Below, piece after piece: positions 36,406 to 63,737 of a DNA stretch of 64,000 bases (position 1 is the first letter of the stretch; the number at the start of each line of letters is the position of its first letter). Location: NCBI RefSeq assembly GCF_000024785.1, contig NC_013441.1, forward strand, positions 310,001 through 374,000, read 5' to 3'. Made by a program: the position numbers and the translations under genes. The DNA comes from Gordonia bronchialis DSM 43247 (GTDB lineage Bacteria; Actinomycetota; Actinomycetes; Mycobacteriales; Mycobacteriaceae). Below the pieces are notes generated by a model, which ran no database searches, was not told where the DNA came from, and saw only the letters and a program-made list of their open reading frames with translations.

Positions 36406-37134
36406 CTACGACGCCGCGGATATCCCGTCGGGGCCCTCGCGACGGGCGAGTCGTCCGAACAGTCCGCCGTCGCCGAAGTCGGGATCATCTTCGACGTCCT
36501 CGTCGAGCTCCTCGTCCAGCGCGTCGTAGTCGTCGAGATCGTCGTCCTCATCGAAGTCCTCATCGAGTGCGAGGAACCGCAGTGCCGCGTAGATCTGCCG
36601 ACTGGTCGCTTCCCAACGGCCGAGTTGCTCGCGGCTCAGTTCCACGTCCTCGGGGCCGTCCGATGTCGCGGAGTGCCGACGCCAGGACAGGCATTGCATC
36701 ATGCAGAAGTCGTGCAGTTCCAGGATCTTGCCGGCGTCGAATCCGCAGATCCGCGCCACCTCGGCGTCGCTGAGTGAATCGGCCTCGGGATCGAGCGCGA
36801 CGATCGTGGCCAGTTCGTCGGGCATCTCCCGCGGCTCGGTGGGCTCCTCGGCGGGTCCCTCGAGCAGCGCGATGATGCCGGGTGCCTCGTCGGTCAGGAA
36901 CACCCGCCAATTCGCCAGGGCCGATTCGAGATTGCGGGCGTGAAAGACCGCCGACTCGAGGACGAGTCGGGCATTGACATGGATGCCGCGGGTCTCCAGC
37001 GTGATGAAGGGGTGGGTGCCACGTTGCTCGGCGATGATCTGGTTGGTGTAGGCGAGGCTCGGATTCCGCCGGGCCAGCGGTGCGAACAGTTCGATCCGCG
37101 GCGCATCGCGATGCACATGCAGCCACGACGGCAC
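36406..37134 (-). CDS. CesT/YbjN-type chaperone-like domain protein with acidic tail
   Basis: A protein of 242 residues from a GTG at 37134. The N-terminal part (IELFAPLARRNPSLAYTNQI; later NLESALANWRVFL) matches the CesT/YbjN peptide-binding chaperone-like domain, also found in the larger protein at 43.9-45.2 kb. The C-terminus is extremely acidic (DEDFDEDDDLDDYDALDEEL). In-frame homology-like sequence continues upstream of 37134 to about 37230 with no ATG, GTG or TTG, so the N-terminus may be longer with an unusual start, or the 5' end may be damaged. Confidence 0.7.
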   Translation of the reverse strand: MPSWLHVHRDAPRIELFAPLARRNPSLAYTNQIIAEQRGTHPFITLETRGIHVNARLVLESAVFHARNLESALANWRVFLTDEAPGIIALLEGPAEEPTEPREMPDELATIVALDPEADSLSDAEVARICGFDAGKILELHDFCMMQCLSWRRHSATSDGPEDVELSREQLGRWEATSRQIYAALRFLALDEDFDEDDDLDDYDALDEELDEDVEDDPDFGDGGLFGRLARREGPDGISAAS

Positions 37135-37352
37135 CGGCTCGGTGGGGAGGCGGAGGTCGTTGTCGCCCGGGTCGAGATCGACCGGCTCCCCGGCGAGCTC
37201 TTCGATCGCGCCGACGGCGAGCGCGCGCAGGTGCTGCTGACAGCATTATCGTCGTCAGCACCGACAGGCCGGAACCGTTCTATCGATCGTCGATCGATGA
37301 GACGACTGGGAACCCCGGCCACCCGCCGCATACACGCGCTATCGTCACAGAC

Positions 37353-43877: not shown

Positions 43878-45155
43878 TCACTGGGGACGTGTCACCAACG
43901 AGATGGCGTTGTCGAGCAGGTCGGCGAATCTACGCAGATCGGCCGTCATCTCGGCGCACAGGTCAATCTCTTCGGCAGGTGCATGCTGTGCGAGGGCTTG
44001 ACGGTGTTTGCCGGCCCAGTCGAGCACCATCGTCTCGCAGAAGGTGCGATACCCGCGCAGACGGTCTGCTTTGCGATTCGCCAGGTGTGCGGCCCTTTCC
44101 GGCGAGAGCTCGCCGCGAGCAAAGATGTCCAGGAGCGTCTGCATCCCGACGGGCATGGTGCTGTGTGCGCACTCGTGGGCGCCCGGTCCCCCCGGGTTGA
44201 GCACCCTCACCACGGCCTCTCCGATCTCGTTGACGAAATACCGCCAACGGGCAAGTGCGGCTTCCATATTGTCGGGATGAAAGACAAGACAGTCGACGCT
44301 GAGCTGGGCGTACACGTGATCACTCGAGACGATGTAGGTGATTCCGCGGAAGAGATGCGAGTAGGTCTTGACCACGGTGGCCAGTGCGGACGAGTCGCTG
44401 AGTCGGTGGCAGACGGTGGCGGTGAACACGACCCGACGCTCGGCCTGCGGCACGAATACGCTTGTGGGCAGGGCGTCGGTCAGCGGTAGGTCGATCATCC
44501 CGTGGTCGGCCATCGTCAGTTCGCGCTGCGTCGTCGCAGACAGCCAGGAGAGCACCAGCTCCGCGAGGTGACAACAATCGGAGACGCGGATCGCGAGGGT
44601 CGTCGGATCCGGCTCCGCCTGGGGTCCCGCGGGAGGTATCGAGAGGTCGGGGACCGCTGACAGGTGGCGCCGCTGCTCCACGTCTGGCTGCGGCGGGATC
44701 TCGAACGGCGTGACCGAACCCCTCGGGTCACGCAGCGTGAGGAACGTGGGATGCGGAATGTTCCACAGGTCACGCAGCAGTTCGACGACCTGCGCCACCA
44801 CCAACCGGTGCCGTTTGCGTCCGGCGTCGATGACCCACTCGTGTTTGCGGGTCAGGTACCGCCAGCCCATCTCGCTGAACCGTCGGTGCCGATCCGTGAT
44901 CTCCTGTGCCAACTCGGCCGGCGTGCCGACGGTGCGGAGGGTGCGGACGAGATCGCTGGGGATGGAGCACCGGACCCCTCGGGACTTACTGGCCTCGAAC
45001 CGCACGAAAACACGAAAACCCTTGTCCGGGAGTGACGCCCCGAGTTCGAGGAAGTTGAACCCGCCGTAGGTCAGGTCGCCGAGTCGCATGGCGAGATCGT
45101 TGACGAACTCCCGCCACGACTCGTCGATGGCGTCGTCGAAGTTGTTGATGGTCAT
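43878..45155 (-). CDS. Two-domain CesT/YbjN-type chaperone-like protein
   Basis: A 425-residue soluble protein with two copies of a CesT/YbjN-like peptide-binding fold: one N-terminal (GFNFLELGASLPDKGFRVFV; WRYLTRKHEWVI) and one C-terminal (RRVVFTATVCHRLSDSSAL; NMEAALARWRYFVNEIGEAV). The latter resembles the protein at 36.4-37.1 kb. GGGAGGGCAC precedes the ATG at 45155. It heads a three-gene unit with the Hsp70-like and pRiA4b-like genes, though 157 bases separate it from the Hsp70-like start. A chaperone role for a specific client is inferred. Confidence 0.7.
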   Translation of the reverse strand: MTINNFDDAIDESWREFVNDLAMRLGDLTYGGFNFLELGASLPDKGFRVFVRFEASKSRGVRCSIPSDLVRTLRTVGTPAELAQEITDRHRRFSEMGWRYLTRKHEWVIDAGRKRHRLVVAQVVELLRDLWNIPHPTFLTLRDPRGSVTPFEIPPQPDVEQRRHLSAVPDLSIPPAGPQAEPDPTTLAIRVSDCCHLAELVLSWLSATTQRELTMADHGMIDLPLTDALPTSVFVPQAERRVVFTATVCHRLSDSSALATVVKTYSHLFRGITYIVSSDHVYAQLSVDCLVFHPDNMEAALARWRYFVNEIGEAVVRVLNPGGPGAHECAHSTMPVGMQTLLDIFARGELSPERAAHLANRKADRLRGYRTFCETMVLDWAGKHRQALAQHAPAEEIDLCAEMTADLRRFADLLDNAISLVTRPQ

Positions 45156-55688: not shown

Positions 55689-56581
55689 TTAGTCTGCGGT
55701 TTCGTCGAACCGCCCCGACATCCGCTCGACTCCGCGAAACAAGGCCGAATGATCGAGCCCGGCATCACCGTTCGCCCGCGCCGACGCCATCAACGTCGCG
55801 ACGAGTGACCCGAGCGGCGTGACCACGCCGGCATCCCGCGCGGCAGCGGTGACGATACCGAGGTCTTTGTGGTGCAGGTCGATTCGGCCACCGGGTGCGA
55901 AGTCGCGGCCGAGCATGCGGTGCGCCTTGTGGTCCAGCACCGTCGAACCGGCCAGCCCGCCGCCAAGGACCTTGATCGCGGTTGCGGTGTCGACGTCGTG
56001 GGCTTCGAGGAAGACGATCGCCTCGGCGAGCGCCTGGATGTTGGCGGCGACGATCAGCTGATTGGCAGCTTTCACCGTCTGCCCGCTGCCGCTGGGCCCG
56101 ACGTGCACGACCGTCGAACCCACCGTCTCGAGGATCGGGAGTGCCCGGGTGAATGCCTCGTCGGAGCCGCCGACCATGATCGACAGCTTGCCCGTGACCG
56201 CGCCCTCCTCGCCGCCGGACACGGGGGCGTCGAGGAAAATCAGACCGGCCGCCTCCGCCAGCTCGGCCATGCGAATCGCGACATCGGGTGCGATGGTGGA
56301 GAAGTCGACGATCACCGTGCCAGGTGTGGCATGCGCGAAGACGCCGTCGTCGCCGGTGAGTACCTCTTCGATGTTGGGGGAGTCTGGCAGGTTCAGGGCT
56401 ACCAGCTCGGCGGAGGTGACGGCCTCGGCAACCGTCTCGGCGGCACGACCACCCGCCTCGACCAGGGCGGCGGCCTCGACGACGTGCGGTTGTACCCGAC
56501 GACGGTGTGCCCGGCACGCGCCAGGTTGATCGCCATGGGGCTGCCCATGACGCCAAGTCCGATGAATCCGATTGTGGCCAT
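55689..56581 (-). pseudogene. glxR: 2-hydroxy-3-oxopropionate reductase, one frameshift near the start
   Basis: From the ATG at 56581 the frame begins [20 protein letters not shown], the NAD-binding start of beta-hydroxyacid dehydrogenases. After GYNRT, near 56485, one base is missing and the rest lies in another frame: [12 protein letters not shown], then FLDAPVSGGEEGA, GPSGSGQTVKAANQL with the catalytic Lys, and a C-terminus to 55689. Overall it matches tartronate-semialdehyde reductase or 3-hydroxyisobutyrate dehydrogenase. The upstream hyi gene favours the former. This may be a sequencing error. Confidence 0.85.
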
Positions 56582-57424: not shown

Positions 57425-57859
57425 CTACGACCACCCCGGGTCTCGTGGCGGTTCCAACGGAATCACATCGGCCAAGTCGTCGGCCGAGACGGCAACCGTC
57501 CTCAACTCAGGCCACCGGGCGAGTAGCAAGTCCTCGACACAGTCGGATGTCGCGTACTCCACGAGTGCGCGGGCGGCGGCGATCGGCGGGTGCAGGCGAC
57601 TGAATTGGTCGTGAATCCACGGGGGCGCAGCAAGAAAGTCCGACCACGGGTGGCGTTTGTCCGGGATCGTTGCCGTCAGCGTCTGAATCGCCGCGACCGT
57701 CGGATCATCGTGGGCCACTGACTGGGCCGGTTCGAGCTGGGCCAGGAGCCGACCGTGAAGTGCGGCGGCGTAATCGTGCCAGTAGTCACGCTCGTAGTGC
57801 CTGGCAGCGCGAGCAGCGGTGTAGGCGTACGCAAGTCGCTTCACGCCGAAGTCGGTCAT
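57425..57859 (-). CDS. Unknown protein B of tandem paralogue pair
   Basis: A 144-residue soluble protein that I do not recognise. YERDYWHDYAAALHGRLLAQ near the N-terminus and a C-terminal segment ARALVEYATSDCVEDLLLAR followed by VAVSADDLADVIPLEPPRD align in order with the gene just upstream, so the two are paralogues. The ATG at 57859 overlaps the upstream stop by 4 bases. It is the last gene of the AlbA_2 - NERD helicase operon and is 10 bases upstream of hyi. Confidence 0.72.
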   Translation of the reverse strand: MTDFGVKRLAYAYTAARAARHYERDYWHDYAAALHGRLLAQLEPAQSVAHDDPTVAAIQTLTATIPDKRHPWSDFLAAPPWIHDQFSRLHPPIAAARALVEYATSDCVEDLLLARWPELRTVAVSADDLADVIPLEPPRDPGWS

Positions 57860-58329
57860 CGGGTCGGCCATTCCCACGATGGCGGCTGGATCACAAAATC
57901 TCGTAGTTCCAGCTTGATCGTGTCGATAGCGACCCGTTCGATACCTGGATCGTGCGTGGTCAGGATCTCGACGATGTAGTCGGCGACGGCGTAGCTCAAC
58001 GATTCTCGCGCTACACGCAGAGTTTGGAGCGAATGCTGAAGAGCTTCGTCCACGGGGCCGGTCGCGCCAGCCGGGTGGCATGGGTCGTCGTAGCGGGGCA
58101 GACAGTTCAGTCCGTTGGTGAGCAGCCGCTCGGCGAAGTGCCGAAGCGAGTCCAGCTCGTCTGGGCGTTGTGACCGATCTCGAGGATCGATTCGCTCGAT
58201 CAGCGAGGACCGCAGCCGACGGTAGTAGTCAAGCCAGTACTGGCGGTCCACCGGAGGTTCGGTGCGGGTGTGAACGAGTGCACGGGCTGCGTCGTGCACC
58301 GTGAGACGCCGCGTGTTGATCGTCACCAT
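57856..58329 (-). CDS. Unknown protein A of tandem paralogue pair
   Basis: A 157-residue soluble protein. It shares with protein B the pattern RQYWLDYYRRLRSSLIERI near the N-terminus, then LSYAVADYIVEILTT and IKLELRDFVIQPPSWEW near the end. The extra first 15 residues (VTINTRRLTVHDAARALV) add a beta-strand. No catalytic motif, signal or membrane segment is seen. It starts 61 bases after the helicase stop on the same strand. Its place in the operon suggests it works with the helicase and AlbA_2 protein, perhaps as a paired complex with protein B. Confidence 0.72.
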   Translation of the reverse strand: MVTINTRRLTVHDAARALVHTRTEPPVDRQYWLDYYRRLRSSLIERIDPRDRSQRPDELDSLRHFAERLLTNGLNCLPRYDDPCHPAGATGPVDEALQHSLQTLRVARESLSYAVADYIVEILTTHDPGIERVAIDTIKLELRDFVIQPPSWEWPTR

Positions 58330-58390
58330 GCTGGGACTTTCCGACTTGGGACGAGGTGGACCGAACACTATGCCCGAGTACCGACAAGTC

Positions 58391-60043
58391 TCAGATCCCC
58401 AACCGGCGCGCCACATCTGGTCCGCCGACCTCCCGGACGAACTCCGGATCCCCGCACACCACAAGTTGATCGCGGGCGCGGGACAGTCCGACGTAGAGAC
58501 GTTCGCGGGATCGTTCACGTGGCTTCGACTCGTTCAAGGCCAGTACGACGACGCGCCGTTCGAGTCCCTTGAAGCCGAGCACGTGGCCGTAGAACACCTG
58601 CTCGGCATCCCAGAAGGTGTCCCAGTAGGCGGCTGTGCCCAGCGCTTGGCGGTCGACCTGTTCGGGATGGCGGCTGCCCGTCGTCAGCAGGGCGATGTCC
58701 TCGGGCCGCCACCCCTCGTCGAGGAGCGGGTCGATCTGGTCGTCGGCGGCGTCGAGAGCGTCGTCGGCGTTGCAGGCGACGAACTGCACGTCGGGCCCGT
58801 CACCGCCCCGAAGCTGCATACGTTGTCCGACAAGGGGACTGAACGTGGTCGCGATCTGGCGGGTGTTGCGCAGATTGTGGTCGAGGATGAGCGGCACCAG
58901 CGGGACCGGTGGCGACCCCTGCCGGTCGAACACCCGCTGGTATTCGTCGCTGAACAGGTAGATGCCACTGGTGCCCGGGTCACGCAGGCAGGCGAGGAGC
59001 GGTAGCCACCAGTCGTCGGCGAAGTCCTGCGCCTCGTCGATGACGATCGCGTCGAACCGGTGACCGGGCGGGAGTGCTTCGGCAAGCTCGACCATCTGGT
59101 GCGGCAACGTGTGCTCCCAGAACTCGGCGGCCTCCTGGGTGCGTACCGATTCGTCGGGGCCGGCCGAGGCACCCCAGGTGATGCCGAGGTCGTGGAACTC
59201 GCCGATGTAGGCGGGTTGCTCGCGGCGTGACCAGTGCGACGTGATGCGCGTGAAGTACGACGCGAGGCCGTGTGAGTAGCAGATGAGTGCGACGCGCTGC
59301 CCGGCGCGGGAGAGTCGTCTGGCCTGTTCGAGAGCGAGGAAGGTCTTGCCGCTGCCGGCGCCGCCGCGGATCTCCACCCGCGAGAGTTTGCTGATCGCAC
59401 TAAGGATGACGGCTTGCTGCTCGGTGATGATCTCGGCGGTGGCGTCATTCTCGAGGGCTCGCGCAACGACGTCACGCTGCGGCAGACCACGCCCACTCAG
59501 CGCGGTCTGCAGTTGGTCGATGCCGGTCGGATCGAGCATGGGCAGGCTATTGGTCTGCTGCAGAAGCACATTGCGGATCAACGGCATCAGCGCGTCGAGC
59601 TGGGTGCGGTCGATGATCTTCCAGCGCGGGCAATCGGGGAGCGCGAAGTCCGCGGGCACCGCCGAATGCGGCAGCACGACAAGGTGGTCCCACCGCAGCC
59701 GTCCCTGCGTCCAGGCCGGGTCGGACTCAACGTACTCCCGCAGCGCGTAACATGCGGCGCGTGCCTGCTCGACGGGGTCGATGCGCTTGGGTGGCTGACC
59801 GGCCCGTGCCTGCAGCCACGAGTCGCCGTCGTGCCACACCTCGCCGCCCTTAACCTCGAGGCAGGCGATGCCGGCGCCGTCGATGGCGACGACGAGATCG
59901 ACCTCGTGCTCCTTGTCGTGGTCGGTGACGCGTTGACCGGCGATGAGGAGGTCGTCGTCGAGGAGTTGGTCGCGTAGCCGAGCCCAGACCTGCTGCTCGG
60001 CGGGCGAGGCGAAGCGGGGTGGGTCGGGGATCAGGTGGGGCAC
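58391..60043 (-). CDS. NERD nuclease-domain/UvrD-like SF1 helicase
   Basis: A 550-residue fusion. Residues about 12-130 form a NERD nuclease-related domain with the PD-(D/E)xK-like core (EVDLVVAIDG, Asp49; CLEVKGG, Glu63-x-Lys65). Residues 200-550 form a superfamily 1 helicase: Walker A RGGAGSGKT (227-234), Walker B IVIDEAQDFADDWW, LRNTRQIA, and motif VI YVGLSRARDQLVV. The combination should bind and cut or unwind DNA. NERD-helicases are found both as housekeeping-like genes and in defence islands. The start lies 12 bases after the AlbA_2 gene. Confidence 0.9.
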   Translation of the reverse strand: MPHLIPDPPRFASPAEQQVWARLRDQLLDDDLLIAGQRVTDHDKEHEVDLVVAIDGAGIACLEVKGGEVWHDGDSWLQARAGQPPKRIDPVEQARAACYALREYVESDPAWTQGRLRWDHLVVLPHSAVPADFALPDCPRWKIIDRTQLDALMPLIRNVLLQQTNSLPMLDPTGIDQLQTALSGRGLPQRDVVARALENDATAEIITEQQAVILSAISKLSRVEIRGGAGSGKTFLALEQARRLSRAGQRVALICYSHGLASYFTRITSHWSRREQPAYIGEFHDLGITWGASAGPDESVRTQEAAEFWEHTLPHQMVELAEALPPGHRFDAIVIDEAQDFADDWWLPLLACLRDPGTSGIYLFSDEYQRVFDRQGSPPVPLVPLILDHNLRNTRQIATTFSPLVGQRMQLRGGDGPDVQFVACNADDALDAADDQIDPLLDEGWRPEDIALLTTGSRHPEQVDRQALGTAAYWDTFWDAEQVFYGHVLGFKGLERRVVVLALNESKPRERSRERLYVGLSRARDQLVVCGDPEFVREVGGPDVARRLGI

Positions 60044-60055
60044 GGTCAGCCACTC

Positions 60056-61714
60056 CTACTCTGGAGACATATACTTGGCAGCTCGTCGCTCACCCACGAG
60101 CCGCAAACGACCATCCTCGACGAGTCGTTTGAGTATGGCGCGCGCCTGATGTGGATCGGTCTGACACAGCTGCGCGGCTTGACTTCGTGTGATTGATCCA
60201 TAGGCATGGACATAATCCATGATCATGCGTTGCTGTTGGAGGGGATCTGCTCCCTTGACGCGCACGTAGGCGTTACGGTCCTGGGCAAGGTCGTAGAAGC
60301 GCGCGGTCAGGTGGTACTTGCGACTCCGACCGACCCCACGAGCTTCCAGGATTCCGTACTCGACGAGTCGACCGAGAATCGTCTTGGCCGTCGCTGGAAT
60401 GAGGTGTAACTCCTCGGCAACCTCGCTGCTGGTCGCGGATCCTGATGACTTCACTTCATGGACGACGCGCAACTCGTTCAGCCGTAGCGGGTTCTGGCTC
60501 TCGTTCTCCCAGGTGAGCAGAAACCGCACCAGGTCGAGGTCAGCGTTGCCCAGCGGGACCGTCACCACAACTGAATCGGTTGTGCTGTGCGAATAGTCGG
60601 GTACTGCGCGACCTGCTCTGAGTTGCTGCTCGAACATGTCGTTGACGCCCTTGCCTTTTCGTTCGACAAGCCCGGCGCGCTTGAATGCTGCGGCCAGAAC
60701 GGGACTTCGTGGACGAGACTGGTCGAGCAGGTTGGCGATTGTGACACCTGGTGGAAACCCTCCGGGGTTTGATACCACGAATTCACTCTCGGTGATCTGC
60801 ACGCGTGTGGGTCCTACCGCTGTGTAGTCGCGATGCACCAGAGTGTTTGCCACGGCCTCACGTCGTGTCAGTGACGGTATGAGTGGTACCTCGACACGGT
60901 GGATGCCTGCCATCAACTCCGTGACGGTGTTGCGGGTGTCGATGAGGGTGCGTAGCTGCTCTGCGGCGGCCAGCAGCGGTGCGACGATGGTGACGTTCGC
61001 GGATGGGCCGCTCTCTCGCAGATCTTGGAAGATGAACTCTGCATTGGGAACCCAGTGCTGCATCGCTGACTTCGTGCCGAACAGCAGCACTGCGCCGATG
61101 CTGACCGGATCGTGTATGGGAAGCAGCCCTAATGCGCTGATGATGTCGTGATCGGACAGTTCGCCGAGGTCGTCGCCCGCTGCTCGACACAGCTGACGAA
61201 ATCTCTCGAACTCGTTGGAGTCGAGATCATCGAACGTTGCGCCACGGGCCGTTGCCGCAGCGAAGTCTTGACCTCGGGTGACCATTCCCATGCTGACGAT
61301 CTCGTGGGCCGTCATCGGGGCGCACTCGGGCTCCCCTGTGGACTTGATGACACGCTTGGTGAAAACTCCGAGCTTGGTGCCCACAGGCCCGGGATTTGCG
61401 CGCGGGATGTCGATGCGAATGACTTCGTGGCCGGCCACGATCTCCGTGGAGACATCGACCGCGAGCGCGGGCTCGGTGCTCGCCTGTATGTAGGCGGCGA
61501 CCCGCTCGGGACTGGTCACAGTGCCGTGACGAGGCTTTGCGCCGACGACAGTACCGTCGTCGTCGACACCGATCAGGAGGACACCGCCGTCGCCGTTCGC
61601 CAGACACGCAACTGCCTTGGTCAGATCCTTGTCGCCGATGTCTGACCGTTTGAACTCGGTCGTGAAGGTCTCACCCCCCGCTATCAGCGCCGCCGTGTCC
61701 ATCGAGGTACTCAT
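60056..61714 (-). CDS. AlbA_2/Schlafen-type domain protein with C-terminal winged helices
   Basis: A 552-residue protein. The AlbA_2 (Schlafen-like) domain is near the N-terminus: FTTEFKRSDIGDKDLTKAVA, then LANGDGGVLLIGVDDDG. The centre has the companion ATPase-C-like HATPase_c_4 region (LTRREAVANTLVHRDYT; VSNPGGFPPGVT; KGKGVNDMF). Two winged-helix modules close the protein (SSEVAEELHLIPATAKTILG; TRSQAAQLCQTDPHQARAIL). Such proteins are predicted transcription regulators or nuclease-like effectors, and several sit in defence islands. It leads the operon and probably binds the palindromes upstream of it. Confidence 0.88.
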   Translation of the reverse strand: MSTSMDTAALIAGGETFTTEFKRSDIGDKDLTKAVACLANGDGGVLLIGVDDDGTVVGAKPRHGTVTSPERVAAYIQASTEPALAVDVSTEIVAGHEVIRIDIPRANPGPVGTKLGVFTKRVIKSTGEPECAPMTAHEIVSMGMVTRGQDFAAATARGATFDDLDSNEFERFRQLCRAAGDDLGELSDHDIISALGLLPIHDPVSIGAVLLFGTKSAMQHWVPNAEFIFQDLRESGPSANVTIVAPLLAAAEQLRTLIDTRNTVTELMAGIHRVEVPLIPSLTRREAVANTLVHRDYTAVGPTRVQITESEFVVSNPGGFPPGVTIANLLDQSRPRSPVLAAAFKRAGLVERKGKGVNDMFEQQLRAGRAVPDYSHSTTDSVVVTVPLGNADLDLVRFLLTWENESQNPLRLNELRVVHEVKSSGSATSSEVAEELHLIPATAKTILGRLVEYGILEARGVGRSRKYHLTARFYDLAQDRNAYVRVKGADPLQQQRMIMDYVHAYGSITRSQAAQLCQTDPHQARAILKRLVEDGRLRLVGERRAAKYMSPE

Positions 61715-61721
61715 GGTTCAA

Positions 61722-61776
61722 TTATGCATAACTATGAAGCACTCCCGCGGAGGCTGTCATGGAGTCATAACTTATG
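61722..61776. promoter_or_regulatory. AT-rich cluster of dyads upstream of the AlbA_2 operon
   Basis: TTATGCATAA (61722-61731), CATA-AC-TATG (61727-61736) and CATAA-C-TTATG (61766-61776) lie in an AT-rich stretch just upstream of the operon's first ATG. The repeated CATAAC(T)TATGAA pattern suggests two binding sites for one regulator, perhaps the AlbA_2 protein itself. Confidence 0.6.
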
Positions 61777-61803
61777 AAACTATTGGAAGCTTGAGCCGCC
61801 CTG

Positions 61804-62217
61804 CTATCGGTGGAGGCCAGTCAGCTGGTGGGTCTCCGTCTTGCCGTACTCGTCGATGAGGGTGATTCGCCTGAAGTCTCCCCGCTTCACGTCGAAGAGC
61901 CGCAACGAGATGGGTTGCACCTGAACCGGCCCTTCGGCGCAGTTGGGTACGCACGTTCTGCGATGCTCCACGCCGCTCCCTTCGGCCAGCCGGGGTGTCC
62001 AGCGGGACCAGCTGATGTTGGTGACGATGATCCCGAGGTCTGCGCAGAAGATCGAGTCGATGGTTCGCGGCTTGATCAGTGGCTTGCCGGTGCAGTCACG
62101 GATCACGGTTGGTGCGGGGGCGGCCTGCGCGGTACCCGTGACCGGCACGATGGTGGCCGCGGCCAGCGCGAAGGCGATAAGCCAGAACCGAACGGAGTGC
62201 CGCGCGTGTGAGTGCAT
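61804..62217 (-). CDS. Small secreted protein, unknown function
   Basis: A 137-residue protein with a signal peptide (WLIAFALAAATIVPVTGTA, cleaved near AQA-AP). The mature part has four Cys (RDCTGKPL, IFCADLG, RTCVPNCAEG) and a beta-rich C-terminus with FDVKRGDFRRITLIDEYG. It lies between the AlbA_2 operon and the divergent SIR2 gene, on the operon strand but upstream of the dyads. No family is recognised. Whether it belongs to the cluster is unclear. Confidence 0.78.
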   Translation of the reverse strand: MHSHARHSVRFWLIAFALAAATIVPVTGTAQAAPAPTVIRDCTGKPLIKPRTIDSIFCADLGIIVTNISWSRWTPRLAEGSGVEHRRTCVPNCAEGPVQVQPISLRLFDVKRGDFRRITLIDEYGKTETHQLTGLHR

Positions 62218-62312: not shown

Positions 62313-63737
62313 ATGGCAGACACCGCTCGCGCGCCCGGGCATCTCTTCGTGGTGCACGGACGACTCGAGTCGGTGCGCTACGACGCCGTGATCGTCCCGA
62401 CCGATCGCCACTTCGACGTTTCGTCGCAGTGGGACCGGCTGCTGTCGGGACAAGTACCGTCGCGACCGCGCGGGTGGTCCCGAGGATTCGGACGCAGCGA
62501 CGGTACCGAGGGGGTCTGGTTCATCAGCGTGTACGACGAGACCGCTGTCACCGGTGCTGAATTGGCTGAGCGTCTTGACGCATTGGTACGCGACATCGTC
62601 GGCGAGATTGGCGCCGATGTAGGACGTCTGGTTGTTGCGATGCCGGTGCTCGGCATCCGAGGAGGTGCGCAAGGTGCCCGGCGTGGTGCGGTCGTTCGCG
62701 ATCTGGTCGACGCGCTAACCACGATCAGCCACCGGCGTGGCGTCGACATCGCGCAGGTGACGCCAGATCGCGCCGTTCACGGGGCGATCCAACACTTTCG
62801 GAAGGCTGGTACCTCCTCACTGTGGGAACTCACCGCGGAGGAGCTCCAACTTGCCGGGGAACTCGGAAGCTTCGCTCAGCAAGGACATCTCGCGCTGTTC
62901 CTCGGAGCCGGGGTCAGCATGTCGGCTGGACTCCCGAGTTGGGGCAGTCTGCTCACCGAGCTCGCAAACAAGGCACAGATCGCCGCAGCCGATTTCGAGA
63001 GTCTCAACGGGTCGCCGCTCGATCAGGCGGAGTTGGTGTCCCTGCATCTGCAGGACCGGCTCGGCTCCGAAGTTGCTGCGTTGGAGCGCGAAGCGACGCA
63101 GGTGTCGCTGGCGCATGCTCTGCTGGCCGGCCTGAACTGCATGCAGGTGGTCACTACCAACTACGACGAGCTATACGAGGCGGCCGTCGACGCGACGGGT
63201 CACAAACGTCCCGCACTCCTCCCCCGGGAACACGCCGAACCCGGGCGGCCGTGGCTGCTGAAGATGCACGGGGACGTCGGCGACGAGAACGACATCGTGC
63301 TCACGCGACGCAGCTTCGTCCGATACGACGCGAACTCACGCCCGGCGGGATCGCTACTGCAGTCGCTCATGATGACGAAGCATCTGCTGGTCGTTGGGAC
63401 GTCGATGTCAGACGACAACGTTGTCCGGCTGGCCATAGAGGTGGACGACTTCCTCAGGAGCGACGCCACTTTTGGCACCTTCATCGACGTGTCACAACCC
63501 TCGGCCAGAGCCGAGCTCTGGCGAAAGCGCTTCCGCTGGCTCAACTGTGCCGGCGATGAGACCGCCGATCGCGTCCGGCGCATGGAGATTGTCCTCGACG
63601 CCATCGGCATGTACGCCGCTCAAGACGCGTCCTGGCTGCTCGATCCGAGATTCGCCGGCCTGCTGACCCCCGGTCGATCGGGAGGTGATCGACGAGGCCA
63701 GGGCACTGACTCGGCGAGTGCAGCGAGCATCCACTGA
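62313..63737 (+). CDS. Macro-like + SIR2 domain protein, frame broken near C-terminus
   Basis: A protein of 474 residues in this frame. Residues 1-165 look like a macro-type domain (YDAVIVPTDRHFDVSSQW; MPVLGIRGGAQGARRG). Residues 190 to about 400 are a SIR2 domain: LALFLGAGVSMSAGLPSW, TTNYDELYE (281-), LLKMHGDVGD with catalytic His319, and HLLVVGTSMSDDNVV. SIR2 proteins of this class degrade NAD+ in anti-phage defence. TAGAGT six bases upstream suggests a leaderless start. At the C5 run near 63667 the frame is lost and ends in junk; dropping one C lets the protein continue to the window end. Confidence 0.85.
   Translation: MADTARAPGHLFVVHGRLESVRYDAVIVPTDRHFDVSSQWDRLLSGQVPSRPRGWSRGFGRSDGTEGVWFISVYDETAVTGAELAERLDALVRDIVGEIGADVGRLVVAMPVLGIRGGAQGARRGAVVRDLVDALTTISHRRGVDIAQVTPDRAVHGAIQHFRKAGTSSLWELTAEELQLAGELGSFAQQGHLALFLGAGVSMSAGLPSWGSLLTELANKAQIAAADFESLNGSPLDQAELVSLHLQDRLGSEVAALEREATQVSLAHALLAGLNCMQVVTTNYDELYEAAVDATGHKRPALLPREHAEPGRPWLLKMHGDVGDENDIVLTRRSFVRYDANSRPAGSLLQSLMMTKHLLVVGTSMSDDNVVRLAIEVDDFLRSDATFGTFIDVSQPSARAELWRKRFRWLNCAGDETADRVRRMEIVLDAIGMYAAQDASWLLDPRFAGLLTPGRSGGDRRGQGTDSASAASIH

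Follow-up and report, generated by a model that had tools for sequence, protein, structure and literature searches.

Parts of several described systems recur in a short run of minus-strand genes of Gordonia bronchialis DSM 43247, which we analysed within a stretch of 64,000 bp (hereafter the window; NC_013441.1, positions 310,001 to 374,000) of its 5.29-Mb genome. According to excerpts of PMC7554251, the TrlG protein of the Photorhabdus temperature restriction locus is encoded in a trlR-trlF-trlG operon, was discovered via temperature-tolerant mutants and carries an AlbA_2 and a HATPase_c_4 domain in one protein. The parts of PMC9503650 that deal with TY-Chap proteins propose them as peptide-binding chaperones in host systems countering viral ADP-ribosylation and mention restriction-endonuclease-fold and helicase genes as linked to these systems. 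Judged by titles and abstracts, we found no published account of the combination of genes considered here. The first gene (60056-61714) encodes a 552-aa protein with AlbA_2 (Schlafen-like), HATPase_c_4 and winged-helix domains, assigned with Pfam and an alignment with 10 orthologues; the second (58391-60043) encodes a 550-aa protein in which Pfam and an alignment place a NERD nuclease domain and a superfamily 1 (SF1) helicase. They are followed by the genes for two small proteins, A (57856-58329, 157 aa), which has no known domain, and B (57425-57859, 144 aa), a distant paralogue of A. The order, strand and spacing given for these four open reading frames (ORFs) in the original prediction proved correct: AlbA_2 and helicase genes are 12 bp apart, helicase gene and A 61 bp, and A and B overlap by four bases (ATGA), the start ATG of B lying at 57859. 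The four genes are probably now read as a single transcript. The original prediction saw in them one candidate defence system. We consider it probable, though by no means certain, that they are instead defence-type genes, each mobile on its own, stacked along the left edge of a large DISARM/ARMADA-like island.

The four genes have separate distributions. Across 301 genomes of the family, helicase matches at E ≤ 1e-10 occurred in 82 (the own genome counted), AlbA_2 matches in 35 and matches to an improved A/B profile in six, from 3 of 31 genera. With this frequency the helicase is an accessory and not a core gene, as the original prediction had assumed. Of the 81 further genomes that matched the helicase, 40 had their loci fetched (G012, G133 and G182 were added later), usually with flanks of 6-8 kb that are shorter at contig ends; genes in fetched loci were called with a codon-score caller. 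Searches with tblastn found AlbA_2, A or B near the helicase in none of the 40, and when the genes of 41 helicase loci were clustered into families, none besides the helicase was present in more than six loci. From the AlbA_2 side, the 11 closest loci among the 34 other genomes with a match (44-78% identical; the match in G084 is partial) all lacked the helicase nearby. It was near AlbA_2 in one of 80 further named loci, a Propionibacterium metagenome bin (L154), where its C-terminal part lies 5.3 kb from AlbA_2 with Nudix-like, ADP-ribosylglycohydrolase-like and other genes in between. In Gordonia hankookensis (G012), AlbA_2 lies about 290 kb from helicase remnants. On these counts the claim of one system is not supported, and the conserved four-gene order that it implied was seen in no second genome among the loci and genomes examined. 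The original prediction had itself named an absence of linkage between A/B, AlbA_2 and helicase elsewhere as the outcome that would speak against it. This is largely what we observed, because the loci examined showed no linkage of AlbA_2 with helicase orthologues; the exception is a proximity of helicase and A/B in one genus (g18), discussed below.

The AlbA_2 protein carries its two named domains well above their cut-offs (AlbA_2, PF04326, 59 bits against 25.3; HATPase_c_4, PF13749, 47.3 bits against 26), with the winged helix near residues 412-470 and a weak second helix-turn-helix signal near residues 495-544. Its layout is similar to that of TrlG as excerpts of PMC7554251 describe it, the likeness being one of domains. 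By sequence its only solved structural relative is 3lmm, an uncharacterised protein (E = 1.3e-21, residues 28-385). The original prediction noted AT-rich dyads ahead of the operon, and both were found: the proximal palindrome TTATGCATAA (61722-61731) lies over the probable -10 region of AlbA_2 and the distal palindrome TCATAAGTTATGA (61765-61777) upstream of the gene. Searched on both strands with at most one mismatch, TATGCATAA occurred at 14 sites in 10 of the 11 AlbA_2 promoters and at no other place in 176 kb. In each of the 10 promoters it stood 2-20 bp ahead of the called start, and four loci had a second site 50-52 bp further upstream. In the own genome the AlbA_2 promoter was the only match with fewer than three mismatches. 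The palindrome-bearing orthologues sit in differing surroundings from which the other three genes are absent. A held-out set comprised 73 loci, the 80 further ones minus six that had served before and one whose match was truncated, and 12 of them had the strict motif compared to 0.006 expected per locus. A scoring matrix trained on the 11 promoters reached the threshold score of 14 in 18 of the 26 closer held-out loci (those ranked first, with L211 added), in none of the 47 more distant ones and in 49 of 3850 background windows. The AlbA_2 start codon follows the proximal palindrome by 7 bp, which suggests a leaderless transcript. Judged from these sequence features, the palindrome is probably an autoregulatory operator that the winged helix would bind, and its conservation suggests that proteins of this AlbA_2/ATPase/winged-helix type regulate themselves. 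The neighbours of AlbA_2 vary: no neighbour common to the five closest loci was seen, and of eight neighbours scanned one was HsdR-like of type I restriction (L152), one Upx-like (L151) and the remaining six did not belong to defence families. In Dietzia aerolata (L152:5983-11042) a single base is shared by the AlbA_2 gene and this HsdR-like gene.

For the helicase protein, the NERD domain scored 38.2 bits (PF08378, cut-off 22.1) and the SF1 helicase signature 28.6 bits (PF13538, cut-off 27.4). Residues D49, E63 and K65, the Walker A motif GGAGSGKT and the DEAQ motif were invariant in 11 aligned sequences, and we read the first three as a putative nuclease triad. The protein resembles the reverse transcriptase-associated NERD-helicase of PADLOC (PDLC03813), likewise NERD plus SF1 helicase, with 119.7 bits and a best stretch at residues 13-265; unlike in that association, a PADLOC scan of six proteins from the window and 11 from the island, starting at B on the left, showed no reverse transcriptase. 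Helicase orthologues were broken or in pieces in G010, G012, G080, G133, G143, G147, G155 and G298, some of which are draft assemblies. To describe the neighbourhoods we searched 41 helicase-bearing genomes with a protein of locus L059, which from its sequence, and not from a family search, we take to be ADP-ribosylglycohydrolase-like. Seven of the 30 matches lay within 6 kb of the helicase compared to 0.09 expected under uniform placement, and 10 lay within 20 kb (0.26 expected). For TY-Chap, 5 of 50 analysed matches were within 6 kb (0.14 expected), the 50 being what was left of 55 rows after five fragments on contigs without the helicase had been omitted. DISARM genes form another setting, in two of the 40 loci: in L042 the order is PD-(D/E)XK nuclease, UvrD/RecB-like helicase-nuclease, NERD-helicase, Vsr, UvrD-like helicase, DrmA and DrmB, and in L064 the helicase is near a UvrD-like helicase and DrmA. 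The facts fit an accessory DNA-processing enzyme that is reused in several settings, mostly standing alone and linked to genes of ADP-ribose processing.

Some of these loci have features of their own. L042 (1139-8928) and L043 (1274-8845), from two genera, each show what looks like an operon of the NERD-helicase, a UvrD/RecB-like helicase-nuclease (64% identical between them) and a gene of about 930-960 aa, the PD-(D/E)XK nuclease being found in L042; the trio of genes may be a separate three-gene system. Two uncultivated viral contigs (L224, L225) carry a 30-31% identical NERD-helicase beside Vsr-like and near DrmA-like genes. The Gordonia loci L033 and L038 share a gene of about 950-1130 aa near the NERD-helicase, probably of an SNF2-type family.

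The original prediction took A and B for paralogues, and global alignment agrees (z = 7.6, none of 1000 shuffles as high, about 27% identity). Neither protein matched Pfam, PADLOC or NCBIfam. An alternative ATG of B at 57871 would give 148 aa, and the relative P0004 has its start at the second Met. Word-based searches of the protein set with A and B returned only four clusters, each protein having one cluster that is 99% identical and another that is 81-83% identical. A was found in 1 of 59 genomes of the genus, namely its own, and the A/B profile found the own genome only among 394 genomes of the class. Intact relatives are 154-161 aa long. According to the gene calls, the A/B relative overlaps a TY-Chap gene by 7 bp in three genomes of genus g18; in G170 a TY-Chap gene follows the relative after about 0.6 kb, and in G114 a broken relative has one at a distance of about 2.8 kb. 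A/B relatives thus lie near TY-Chap in L244-L247; Pfam identified the TY-Chap proteins at two of these loci (L244 and L247), and the others were assigned by their similarity to these. A structure model of the L244 relative (mean predicted local distance difference test, pLDDT, 80.6) is all-helical save for short strands, and a fold search with it gave no usable match. Model and neighbourhoods together point to a rare, probably all-helical family with remote relatives near TY-Chap chaperone genes in two genera, a candidate new small protein family tied to these chaperones. The TY-Chap section of PMC9503650 names no protein that could be matched to A or B.

If the four genes are stacked in this way, AlbA_2 would be a self-contained autoregulated gene whose winged helix most likely binds paired palindromes of the TTATGCATAA type and keeps its own promoter low until a signal of stress or infection reaches the AlbA_2/ATPase part. 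The NERD-SF1 helicase would be a separate enzyme that probably unwinds and cuts foreign or damaged DNA, and A and B would most likely be adaptor or substrate proteins of chaperone-based (TY-Chap) conflict systems. In this strain the helicase and A/B would have been brought under the AlbA_2 promoter. Separate modules fused under one regulator would, if true, be a concrete case of composite-operon assembly in defence islands.

Several observations weigh against this account. The tight spacing, with gaps of 12 and 61 bp and the ATGA overlap, suits a functional operon. In three genomes of genus g18 the helicase or a remnant of it lies 4.3-7.4 kb from the A/B relative, in convergent orientation; we counted this as one lineage event, and a loose helicase-A/B link is possible. 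For L060 (genome G171) the fetched stretch ends just before a remote A/B relative, which is 7.4 kb away from the helicase, and in G170 about 63 kb separate the two. The palindrome was defined after inspection of the first promoters, and because it was chosen after seeing that set the held-out test matters; there, 8 of the 26 closer and all 47 distant loci stayed below the score of 14. The linkage tests assume uniform placement and count related genomes as independent, and the seven close glycohydrolase cases span three genera and are not seven independent events. Within 100 kb of the helicase lay 15 of the 30 glycohydrolase matches (1.2 expected) and 22 of the 50 TY-Chap matches (2.0 expected), and in 12 control loci TY-Chap appeared twice and the glycohydrolase not at all. 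The ADP-ribose linkage of the helicase may therefore partly reflect a shared variable region. Finally, defence enrichment among the helicase neighbours is weak: 93 PADLOC families matched at least one of 142 neighbours, no family matched more than three, and most neighbours are not known defence genes. In a comparison set of 77 neighbours of the isomerase pair described at the end, five families were matched with at most two members each.

The alternative that survives best concerns the SIR2_2-domain protein at 62313-63737 on the plus strand (Pfam; best PADLOC match ThsA), whose N-terminal ~185 aa have no Pfam match. SIR2, helicase, A and B may act jointly, as a lineage-specific variant of the ADP-ribose conflict systems with an AlbA_2 regulator captured from elsewhere: SIR2 would make or consume an NAD-derived signal, the helicase-nuclease would attack DNA and A/B would handle modified or misfolded proteins. 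As in the ARG-centric systems of PMC9503650, so far as its excerpts describe them, helicase orthologues elsewhere occur near ADP-ribosylglycohydrolase, Nudix and TY-Chap genes, and the A/B relatives near TY-Chap genes also fit. Moreover, L045 and L050 contain SIR2 relatives (32% identity) alongside the helicase and an ADP-ribosylglycohydrolase. Unlike in the ARG-centric systems, the window has neither an ADP-ribosylglycohydrolase nor a TY-Chap gene next to the genes considered here. The sole glycohydrolase match in the own genome is ~60 kb away (C1:429806-430735), the TY-Chap-like stretches of the window (44226-45155 and 36598-37230, minus strand) are 13-21 kb from the helicase, and the Nudix protein of L154 as query had no match in the window. 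The SIR2 gene was described as lying divergently next door; the divergent orientation is correct, and between it and the operon is a 137-aa ORF (61804-62217, minus strand) that looks signal-peptide-like by eye. With these points on both sides we regard the variant as unlikely. A more speculative form, which we hold to be rather unlikely, makes helicase, A/B and SIR2 an unrecognised sirtuin-containing ADP-ribose branch in which the A/B family would replace or feed TY-Chap and the AlbA_2 autorepressor would be a switch released by infection.

The SIR2 gene is also the start of an island of ~30 kb (L236 and L237; C1:371500-404000), so that immediately beyond the window the locus adjoins a large defence island, and the original description of its gene content as defence-like was well founded. 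After SIR2 come a 191-aa protein that resembles a phosphorothioate-DNA restriction enzyme below cut-off, then Vsr and a UvrD-like helicase. DrmA (NF038325, 1034 bits against a cut-off of 950) and DrmB (NF038324, 465 bits against 240) were identified, and beyond them lie a RapA/DrmD-like helicase (below cut-off), a 1573-aa methyltransferase and a 2087-aa YprA/DruE-like helicase, the first 1289 residues of which were scanned. The island also holds two more UvrD-like helicases and an Orf5/SspE-like gene, which is presumably of the DUF262 type. The genes after SIR2 (DrmA, DrmB, Vsr, the RapA/DrmD-like helicase, the methyltransferase, and YprA-like and UvrD/GajB-like helicases) resemble the composition of DISARM/ARMADA as excerpts of PMC12458937 give it, and the gene order of ARMADA type II given there is similar to that of the island. 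The type II succession of a BrxHII/RapA-like helicase, a PglX-like methyltransferase, a YprA-like helicase and a RelE-GajB fusion would suit the order of the island, but the first helicase scores best as DrmD and Pfam at 1e-3 found no RelE domain. DISARM and ARMADA-like parts stand in one run, and the defence context is real. The island genes are neighbours, and the four genes themselves include no core subunit of such a system. Searches at the DNA level gave no match in plasmids and one in phages, which covered 11% of the query.

Were the locus a mere accumulation of mobile genes, neither selected to work as a group nor active against phages, this would explain why the parts are separately distributed and why helicase orthologues are broken in several genomes, as expected of dispensable genes. 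Three points argue against such a pile-up, which we find improbable: the helicase retains its catalytic-type residues, the protein set holds for each of A and B a relative with an open reading frame and 81-83% identity, and the surroundings are those of a defence island. We give still less credit to a single four-subunit defence system in which AlbA_2 would be the sensor, the helicase the effector and A/B accessory subunits. Its co-directional genes, tight spacing and ATGA overlap, the island border and the cluster pattern of A and B (99% and 81-83%), which would fit a kept pair if the two reside in the same genomes, all speak for it. On the other side, its order recurs in no second genome among those examined, and AlbA_2 keeps its conserved promoter where the other three genes are absent. 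A four-gene system should therefore not be named on spacing alone.

On the left flank, B ends 10 bp before the start of a gene at 57414-56611 (minus strand), which presumably encodes a hydroxypyruvate isomerase-like protein. That spacing would place A and B in a metabolic isomerase-reductase operon unrelated to defence, which is hardly credible given that A/B had a match in 0 of 12 fetched isomerase loci, and we rejected it as the loci of all 12 relatives are without A/B. The isomerase is present in 13 of 58 other genomes of the genus and forms with the next gene a pair that is conserved in relatives without A/B. This reductase-like gene behind the isomerase (55692-56581, minus strand) is split over two frames here, with the N-terminal ~40 aa in one of them.

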